From assembly GCF_040581405.1 (NCBI RefSeq), contig NZ_CP137157.1:2375001-2439000 (forward strand): 64,000 bases of DNA, in the 5' to 3' direction. Position numbers and translations under genes: made by a program. Shown in pieces: positions 33,755 to 35,662 of the stretch; positions within the stretch are counted from its first letter, which is position 1; each line of letters starts with the position of its first letter. A model generated the notes under the pieces. That model was given only the letters and a program-made list of their open reading frames with translations, was not told the DNA's origin and searched no databases. The DNA comes from Komagataeibacter sucrofermentans DSM 15973 (GTDB lineage: Bacteria; Pseudomonadota; Alphaproteobacteria; Acetobacterales; Acetobacteraceae).

Positions 33755-34888
33755 TCAGCGCCTGAACGTAGCCGCCACGAAAGGCAGCGCCACGACCGAC
33801 ACAGGCAGCAGCCGCCCGCGCACGCTGGCGAACAGCCGCGTGCCCACGCCCGCAAGGTCAGTTGCCACATAGCCCATGGCCACCGGGCCGCCCACGCTGG
33901 GGCCAAACGCGCCTGACGTGACACGGCCCGCAGGCACCTCGCCCGCCTCATCGGCAAACAGCGCCACACCACCGCGCACCGGGGCGCGGCCTTCGGCGCG
34001 CAGGCCCACACGCCGCCGCGTCGTGCCATCGGCCAACTGGTCGGCCACGACCTGCGCGCCGGGGTAGCCGCCCGCGCGCGCGCCACCGGGCCTGCGGCTT
34101 TTCTGGATGGACCATTCAAGCGCGCCTTCCACCGGGGTGGTGGTCAGGTCGATATCCGCGCCATACAGGCACAGGCCCGCTTCAAGCCGCAGGCTGTCAC
34201 GCGCGCCAAGGCCCGCGGGCGCCACATCGGGCTGGGCCAGCAGGGCGCGGGCCACGGTTTCGGCCCCCTCATTGCCCATGCCGATCTCGTAGCCATCCTC
34301 GCCGGTATAGCCCGAGCGCGAAACGATGCAGTTCACGCCCGCAAGGTCCATCTCGGCCACATCCATGAAGCGCATGGCGGTGGCAGCCGGATTGAGCGCG
34401 GCGAGTGCCGCCTCGGCTGCGGGGCCCTGCAGCGCGATCAGCGCGCGGCCATCGAGCCGCTCGACGGTGCAGGTTTCGGTCAGAGCTTCATGCACATGGG
34501 CAAAATCGGCATCCTTGCACGCGGCATTGACCACGAGCAGCAGCCAGTCGCCCATGTTGGTCACCATCAGGTCATCGCTGATGCCGCCATCATTGGTGGT
34601 GAACACGGCGTAGCGCTGGCGGCCGGGCTTGAGCGCTTTAATATCGGCCGGCACCAGCGCCTCGAGCGCTGCCGCCGCATCGGCGATGTTGCCCGAGCGC
34701 GGGCGGATACGCACCTGCCCCATATGCGAGACATCGAACAGCCCCGCCTTGCCCCGCGTGTGCAGGTGCTCGGCCATGACGCCTGCGGGGTACTGCACCG
34801 GCATGTCATAGCCTGCGAAGGGCACCATGCGGGCGCCGAGTTCGATATGAAGGTCGTAAAGCGGGGTGCGCAGCAGGGGCTGGGTCAT
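33755..34888 (-). CDS. gcvT: Glycine cleavage system aminomethyltransferase T protein
   Basis: Transfers the methylene unit from aminomethyl-GcvH to tetrahydrofolate, releasing ammonia. 377 residues. Signature stretches are ARMVPFAGYDMPVQY, LFDVSHMGQVRI, GGISDDLMVTN (with the catalytic aspartate), SRSGYTGEDGYEI and RDSLRLEAGLCLYG. The ATG at 34888 overlaps the TGA of a 46-codon leader ORF (ATGA), so initiation is probably coupled to that ORF; the only purine-rich site of its own (AAGG) is 13 bases away. The upstream tandem glycine riboswitch indicates induction by glycine. Confidence 0.96.
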   Translation of the reverse strand: MTQPLLRTPLYDLHIELGARMVPFAGYDMPVQYPAGVMAEHLHTRGKAGLFDVSHMGQVRIRPRSGNIADAAAALEALVPADIKALKPGRQRYAVFTTNDGGISDDLMVTNMGDWLLLVVNAACKDADFAHVHEALTETCTVERLDGRALIALQGPAAEAALAALNPAATAMRFMDVAEMDLAGVNCIVSRSGYTGEDGYEIGMGNEGAETVARALLAQPDVAPAGLGARDSLRLEAGLCLYGADIDLTTTPVEGALEWSIQKSRRPGGARAGGYPGAQVVADQLADGTTRRRVGLRAEGRAPVRGGVALFADEAGEVPAGRVTSGAFGPSVGGPVAMGYVATDLAGVGTRLFASVRGRLLPVSVVALPFVAATFRR

Positions 34889-35025
34889 GCGGGCTGGGCC
34901 TTGTGCGGGTCCGCAGGCGCGCGCGCGGCCCCGCATGCCAGGCACGCGGACGGGCGGGCACGAAACGCGCCAGCGGAACAGGTCGGGGAAAATGCGGAGA
35001 ACACGGTAACGAACGGCGTAGACAT
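34885..35025 (-). CDS. 46-aa leader ORF coupled to gcvT
   Basis: Small ORF between the glycine riboswitch and gcvT, read on the minus strand. It begins ATG at 35025 with a strong AGGAG site seven bases upstream and ends in TGA overlapping the gcvT ATG by four bases. The peptide starts MSTPFVTVFSAFSPTCSAG and has three cysteines, including a CLAC pair, with an Arg/Ala-rich middle. It has no clear signal or domain. The site and the exact overlap argue it is translated; its purpose may be to couple riboswitch-controlled initiation to gcvT, or to act as a product itself. I know of no family for it. Confidence 0.65.
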   Translation of the reverse strand: MSTPFVTVFSAFSPTCSAGAFRARPSACLACGAARAPADPHKAQPA

Positions 35026-35039
35026 GCGGGACTCCTGTC

Positions 35040-35055
35040 GAATCCTGATGGATTC
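35040..35055 (-). promoter_or_regulatory. Hairpin before the leader-ORF ribosome site
   Basis: GAATCC-TGAT-GGATTC inverted repeat (6-bp stem, 4-base loop) between aptamer 2 and the AGGAG site at 35031-35036. It could be part of the riboswitch expression platform. Confidence 0.4.
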
Positions 35056-35259: not shown

Positions 35260-35353
35260 TCCATGAAAATGCGCCATGGTTGTGCACACCATGACACCGC
35301 CCACCGCAGGCATTACGTTCTGGGCCTGTAACGTAAAAAAGGATGACCCCTTC

Positions 35354-35662
35354 ATGACCAGCCCGCTGACCATCGTGGCCGAATTCCGCATTCCCGCCGA
35401 GCACCGTGACCACTTCCTCGAGCTCTGCGCCTATGACAGCGCCCATTCCGTGGCGGATGAAAGCGGCTGCCAGCGCTTTGAGGCCGTCTGCCCGCTCGAT
35501 GACCCGCAGACCATCATCCTGGTGGAAGTCTATGATGATGAAGCCGCGTTCGAGGCCCATCTCGCCACGCCGCATTTCAAGGTCTTTGAAGTGGCCGTGA
35601 AGGAACTGGGCGCGGACCTCGTCAGCCTGCGCAAGACCGCGCGCATCGCGCCCCGGGCCTGA
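35354..35662 (+). CDS. Antibiotic biosynthesis monooxygenase (ABM)-domain protein
   Basis: Small 102-residue ferredoxin-like protein. The pattern MTSPLTIVAEFRIPAEHRDHFLELC, then ADESGCQRFEAVCPLDDPQTIILVEVYDDEAAFEAHLATPHFKVF, is typical of the ABM/YgiN quinol monooxygenase family. Such proteins are cofactor-free dimers acting on quinols or aromatic compounds; the substrate is unknown. The ATG at 35354 has AAAGGA 11 bases upstream; the frame extends to 35276 without a site. Divergent from the gcv operon, convergent with speE across a bidirectional terminator. Confidence 0.85.
   Translation: MTSPLTIVAEFRIPAEHRDHFLELCAYDSAHSVADESGCQRFEAVCPLDDPQTIILVEVYDDEAAFEAHLATPHFKVFEVAVKELGADLVSLRKTARIAPRA

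Follow-up and report, generated by a model that had tools for sequence, protein, structure and literature searches.

In Komagataeibacter sucrofermentans, a 46-codon open reading frame (ORF) that separates gcvT from the glycine riboswitch upstream probably serves as a relay (leader) cistron, whose start would be controlled by a tandem riboswitch and from which gcvT would be reached by termination and reinitiation. Judging from sequence comparison, we place the probability of this reading at roughly 0.7. The elements in question all lie on the minus strand of the window, the 64,000-nucleotide stretch of DNA analysed here. The aptamer recognized by Rfam (35226–35139; RF00504, 61.8 bits, E 2.2e-10, gathering threshold 32) sits upstream of the glycine-metabolism gene gcvT (aminomethyltransferase; 34888–33755), identified by its Pfam matches (PF01571, E 1.8e-79; PF08669, E 3.3e-18); the ORFs 3' of gcvT are presumably gcvH and gcvP. 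The small ORF (35025–34885; 46 residues, ATG 35025–35023, TGA 34887–34885) carries a Shine-Dalgarno (SD) motif, AGGAG (35036–35032), 6 nt ahead of the start codon; at the other end, the TGA and the gcvT ATG (34888–34886) overlap within the 4-nt sequence ATGA (34888–34885). The sequence and the list of ORFs confirm this arrangement, coordinates included, as it had been described in an earlier note on this DNA. Since the end of the tiny ORF overlaps the start of gcvT, ribosomes probably use it as a relay.

In a single genome such an ORF and its overlap are weak evidence, and their significance comes only from comparison. Bacterial genes often have an A directly behind their ATG, so that ATGA by itself says little. 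For the window, the probability of the frame staying open (0.68 by shuffling, given the frame) multiplied by one third gives 0.23, and the corresponding chance ranged from 0.10 to 0.33 across the 11 individual loci tried. Searches with GcvT covered 60 genomes, including that of the window, and 397 genomes drawn from the family, and placed 93 loci (30, 60 and 3, by source search). Three of these (L021, L034 and L036) duplicate L116, L123 and L127 and were counted once; seven without the aptamer motif (L028, L138, L157, L158, L160, L166 and L169) were left unclassed, as was L168, and A3 and A5 do not include L120. The final classes are 37 ORF loci, 13 ‘direct’ loci, in which no more than 56 nt separate the motif from the gcvT start, and 32 further loci with a displaced gcvT. 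We compared the leaders of 19 loci from Komagataeibacter (g1, the genus of the window), 13 from Gluconacetobacter (g67), and four and one from two further genera (g97 and g10, respectively), which were all that these searches showed, together with those of 42 other family members.

The same start and the same ATGA overlap with gcvT were present in 37 of 37 ORF loci, so that the start and overlap of the window hold up in relatives, while ORF length itself varies from 15 to 62 codons (46–50 in Komagataeibacter, 61–62 in g97, 22–31 in Gluconacetobacter and 15 in g10). In every one of these loci the ORF begins 47–49 nt past the end of the second aptamer described below, with ATG in 35 and GTG in two, behind an SD match of 4–6 nt (AGGAG in Komagataeibacter, AGGAG or GGAG in g97, AGGAGG in Gluconacetobacter and GAGGT in g10). 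Across the family as a whole the ORF is not the rule: most of the 32 other displaced loci have no clear ORF of this kind. An ORF of at least 10 codons with its start 46–54 nt past the motif and its end in the overlap was found in only four of them (L151, L153, L161 and L163); L025 and L030 have such ORFs of just four and three codons, and L135, L144, L152 and L162 have ORFs that overlap gcvT and start elsewhere.

The length of the ORF changes in steps that preserve its frame. The distance from the ORF start to the gcvT start takes the values 137, 140, 143, 146 and 149 nt in Komagataeibacter and 65, 68, 71, 74, 77 and 92 nt in Gluconacetobacter, corresponding by parsimony, on trees without a support test, to at least six and at least five changes; g97 adds one more (61 versus 62 codons). 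All of these changes, at least 12 in number, are multiples of three and none is out of frame. At one in three for each, 12 of 12 would have a probability of about 2e-6, a figure of simple arithmetic on trees that were not support-tested. Neighbouring intervals in Komagataeibacter move by one or two nucleotides: the linker (47, 48 or 49 nt) changed eight times and the aptamer interval (93, 94 or 95 nt) six times. In Gluconacetobacter the linker (48 or 49 nt) moves once or twice and the aptamer interval is constant. Stops in the ORF frame were absent from all 36 loci of Komagataeibacter, g97 and Gluconacetobacter; the other two frames contained stops in 3 and 4 of 19, 4 and 4 of 4, and 3 and 0 of 13 loci, respectively. 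From these sequences the frame appears to be preserved in such a way that its end falls on the gcvT ATG.

Rfam reported only one glycine aptamer at this locus, even at E ≤ 1, and no second copy appeared in its results. The 72 nt that follow aptamer 1 (35136–35065) can be folded into a second aptamer consisting of P1 (CUUCUG/CAGAAG, 35136–35131 with 35070–35065), P2 and a minimal P3 (GGGAU-AGCG-AUCUC). Across 40 aligned rows, 97.0% of the cells of this structure are paired and 53 cells carry a change on both sides, versus 18.9 in shuffles; none of 500 shuffles reached the observed values for pairing or for both-side change, and slid versions of the structure brought pairing down to 24–46%. Because its P3 never varies it is uninformative by itself, and the support comes from the covarying P2. 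By this alignment the riboswitch is a tandem one, with a second, shortened aptamer lying between the Rfam match and the ORF. The known tandem glycine riboswitch of gcvT operons (RF00504) likewise has two aptamers upstream of gcvT, and aptamer 1 of the window matches it; the present switch differs in that P3 of aptamer 2 is minimal and falls below Rfam detection, and in that the start it would govern first belongs to the small ORF and not to gcvT. The minimal P3 is common to all 40 aligned loci, and the outgroup locus L025 has, as judged by eye, a longer one.

The 56 nt leading from aptamer 2 to the small-ORF start are predicted, in the window copy, to fold at −22.4 kcal/mol (z −3.70) into a hairpin that buries both AGGAG and AUG. 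This predicted expression platform (35077–35023) pairs CAUGC (35077–35073) with GCAUG (35027–35023) and GGGGC (35065–35061) with GUCCC (35032–35028), and its apical stem, read in the sequence, joins GAATCC (35055–35050) to GGATTC (35045–35040). A hairpin at 35055–35040 had been put forward as the platform; it is present, but only as the apical part of the longer predicted hairpin able to bury the SD motif and start codon. Folding z scores below −1.5 were obtained for the start hairpin in 18 of 19 Komagataeibacter loci (the remaining one scored −1.48), 13 of 13 Gluconacetobacter, 4 of 4 g97 and the single g10 locus, and for none of 11 direct loci, where gcvT itself occupies that place (L027 and L147, the other two of the 13, were left out). 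In the 19 Komagataeibacter rows 93.7% of cells are paired, versus 31–49% for slid structures; two pairs have changes on both sides, a number matched by 69 of 500 shuffles, and letter shuffles do equally well on most measures. No both-side changes occur in the Gluconacetobacter hairpin. The fold is thus well kept and its covariation thin.

The strands that would cover the start come from aptamer 2: in Gluconacetobacter the pairing uses the 3' strand of its P1 itself (GACAGAAGGGG), and in Komagataeibacter the neighbouring core strand plus GGGGC. Folding of aptamer 2 and burial of the start should therefore be mutually exclusive, from which an ON switch is predicted. In other bacteria gcvT is known to be switched ON by glycine. 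Duplex energies between aptamer-2 strands and start regions, computed across genera for 19 representative loci, did not favour matched partners, the aptamer strand being nearly invariant. That riboswitch control would act at the start of the small ORF, as originally proposed, is supported by the comparison, with the same start in 37 of 37 loci.

These features suggest the following sequence of events. When glycine is absent, the 3' strand of aptamer 2 would pair over the SD motif and start codon of the small ORF; when glycine is present, aptamer 2 would fold and free both. Ribosomes would then translate the small ORF, terminate at its TGA, inside ATGA, and start again at the gcvT ATG that overlaps it, with a weak SD motif assisting. 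The peptide would be a by-product, and selection would hold the start, the frame and the overlap. What the comparison brings out is a conserved start position, frame, overlap and second aptamer, together with a predicted start-burying hairpin confined to the ORF-bearing genera; translation of the small ORF, its dependence on glycine, the ON sign and reinitiation are steps that we infer.

Several other explanations for a conserved small ORF were weighed against this relay. The ORF might be kept for its product: the earlier note had pointed to a Cys pair (CLAC) in a possibly functional peptide, CxAC is found in 16 of 19 Komagataeibacter loci, and C-terminal words recur within genera (HKAQPA in many Komagataeibacter, YRNDEVVFA in 4 of 4 g97). 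Only some of these peptides have the pair, however (1 of 4 g97, 0 of 13 Gluconacetobacter, absent in the g10 peptide), the window peptide has no Pfam match, three small-ORF peptides tried gave no match in NCBIfam, and by eye the genera have no peptide sequence in common. The ORF pN/pS ratios of 0.84, 0.68 and 0.72 in Komagataeibacter, g97 and Gluconacetobacter lie near their wrong-frame values (0.75/0.89, 0.94/0.67 and 1.05/0.82), pointing to no constraint at the protein level; gcvT gave 0.18 (18 Komagataeibacter genomes, L019 left out). With 0.84 set against 0.18, frame rather than product seems to be selected, and we rejected a functional peptide as the main reading, regarding it as very improbable. 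Nor does the ORF resemble a leader-peptide attenuator, having two non-adjacent Gly in 46 residues; the terminator scan found no intrinsic-terminator-like site from aptamer 1 to gcvT, its one such site (35297–35271) lying upstream of aptamer 1. That gap would suit a reading in which translation of the small ORF mainly shields the transcript from Rho-dependent termination and control is exerted at the transcript level, for which PMC12810186 offers a precedent in Mycobacterium tuberculosis (riboswitch, upstream ORF and Rho together); such shielding does not need an exact ATGA overlap, and we think this explanation hardly likely. It is barely credible that the frame is open by chance and untranslated, with RNA structure alone under selection. 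The single-locus odds given above and the nucleotide-level conservation of the middle part of the ORF in Komagataeibacter agree with that view, but the in-frame length changes and unbroken ORF frame speak against it, as does the 3' part of the ORF, for which RNAalifold gave no pairs with both-side change and the window copy has a folding z of −0.20.

The remaining alternative, which we judge unlikely, is that the small ORF is translated under riboswitch control while gcvT initiates alone from AAGG, the overlap being a matter of operon compaction. gcvT had been thought to lack a well-spaced site, a view that the comparison does not support: 19 of 19 Komagataeibacter loci carry a weak, SD-like AAGG 10 nt ahead of the gcvT ATG (34902–34899 in the window, within the small ORF), all 4 g97 loci have GAGGT at 9 nt, and 10 of 13 Gluconacetobacter loci have GGAGG at 5 nt. 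Because these motifs are kept, independent initiation is possible. Opening the gcvT site costs 5–23 kcal/mol, which does not exceed the cost when the sequence upstream is shuffled (mean z −0.14 in Komagataeibacter, 0.18 in g97 and −0.10 in Gluconacetobacter), which is consistent with an independent start; the site is not extra buried, and so we claim no dedicated lock on gcvT. A candidate RNA lock inside the small ORF (inverted repeats seen by eye in Komagataeibacter, CCCUC against GGAGGG in Gluconacetobacter) was dropped on the same burial values and the same RNAalifold and z results. On the other side, an SD match of at least 4 nt is absent from gcvT in three Gluconacetobacter loci (L119, L120 and L122) and in g10, and compaction fails to explain why unrelated ORFs of 15–62 codons all end exactly on ATGA. 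Under the relay reading, most gcvT copies could have the help of an SD motif for reinitiation and some would have none. In L005 and L007 a stop in the gcvT frame lies 15 nt upstream of gcvT, and L014 likewise has an in-frame TAA before it (open frame 381 aa); gcvT must really start at the overlap there, and a longer GcvT is excluded.

In the 13 direct loci gcvT itself starts 46–54 nt after the same motif, in nine of them as NTGTCC. The direct gcvT start thus sits where the small ORF begins in the other loci, and often reads the same (ATGTC). The riboswitch-controlled start site is therefore probably homologous in the two arrangements, with gcvT having moved. In the GcvT tree, Komagataeibacter plus g97, Gluconacetobacter, and g10 are not united in a single clade; g10 is placed as sister to the clade with the direct genera, and the deepest forks are open. 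A single origin of the ORF followed by loss and several separate gains are both possible. The Ser-2 codon of GcvT is AGC in all eight Gluconacetobacter cases and TCN in all ten direct cases, and among the other loci with a displaced gcvT 13 have AGY and one has TCC; the pattern fits the keeping of ATGA, although an A after ATG is in general common.

On this basis we suggest, tentatively and as something short of an even chance, that acetic acid bacteria possess a family of sequence-free relay cistrons, in which the riboswitch-controlled start that belongs to gcvT itself in related genera has stayed in place, gcvT has shifted 44–185 nt downstream, and the two are bridged by a coding insert, free in length and sequence and selected only for being in frame with ATGA. 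If so, GcvT would answer to glycine only via reinitiation, and evolution could add or remove the insert. Together with relatives that have none, these relay ORFs of 15 to 62 codons behind a single type of riboswitch would form a natural series in which the reach of a riboswitch signal passed on by reinitiation, the role of leader length and sequence, and the handover of a start site from a gene to a leader ORF could be tested. The case also suggests that small ORFs may be selected for frame alone, and coding tests based on pN/pS would miss these.

Comparable relays are known. According to PMC11260477, the B12 riboswitch of M. tuberculosis ppe2 masks the SD motif of a short out-of-frame upstream ORF, uPPE2, and PPE2 was shown experimentally to depend on uPPE2 translation, mostly by termination-reinitiation at an AUGA overlap. 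The present locus is similar, with a short ORF after the aptamer, an SD motif of its own that the predicted platform could mask, and the AUGA overlap in 37 of 37 loci. The uPPE2 system differs in combining a B12 OFF switch with a PPE gene, whereas here a tandem glycine switch, presumed to be ON, precedes gcvT; here, moreover, the frame is kept while the peptide is free over four genera, and the gcvT start is displaced from the riboswitch start. As for the uPPE2-type trait of a downstream gene without its own SD motif, most gcvT copies here have an SD-like motif, and the three Gluconacetobacter loci and g10 named above have no match of 4 nt or more. PMC12810186 describes the Mbox of M. tuberculosis pe20, whose translational platform acts first on a small upstream ORF, Rv1805A, as the platform predicted here would, and mentions, citing others, a PE-containing upstream ORF downstream of the M. 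tuberculosis glycine riboswitch. Rv1805A is there called highly conserved, and the passages considered describe no overlap with gcvT; the present peptide, in contrast, is unconserved and its ORF overlaps gcvT. Of three further articles, PMC4833913, in the passages considered, treats leader reinitiation in general with no mention of a riboswitch; PMC6944388, which deals with the context of glycine riboswitches, does not contain the words ORF, Acetobacter or start codon; and PMC12405394, on Novacetimonas, mentions in the passages considered only an FMN riboswitch. Among the literature matches listed, which mostly lie outside subscription journals, none dealt with acetic acid bacteria in which a small ORF separates gcvT from a glycine riboswitch. 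A relay from a riboswitch through an upstream ORF is therefore already known; what is likely new is its glycine and gcvT version in acetic acid bacteria, with the frame kept and the peptide free, as we infer the mechanism.

Other small ORFs were seen at related leaders. In L024 (g14) a different one of 15 aa, with AAGGA and an ATG at 43 nt, follows the aptamers and stops 76 nt ahead of gcvT. L148 and L167 (g55) have 27-codon ORFs, with no SD match of 4 nt reported, whose stop begins 8 nt past the first gcvT base, without ATGA. Within the small ORF of Komagataeibacter, the middle and 3' part (34980–34885, minus strand) is strongly conserved at the DNA level (TTCCGCTGGCGCG, GCATGC repeats), with neither protein constraint nor covarying pairs in that genus.

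Upstream of aptamer 1, the minus-strand segment 35260–35229 (ATTGACTTG...TGTCAAGTC) is almost unchanged in the 19 Komagataeibacter loci and looks like a promoter; a sigma-70 scan reported no site. The sequence ATTGACTT, also upstream of aptamer 1, is present in 37 of 37 ORF loci, and an inverted repeat (TGACTTG/CAAGTCA) is found there in 16 of 19 Komagataeibacter loci. A divergent gene on the plus strand with an ABM domain (35276–35659; PF03992) starts near the promoter region of gcvT, and it is possible that the two genes share a control region.
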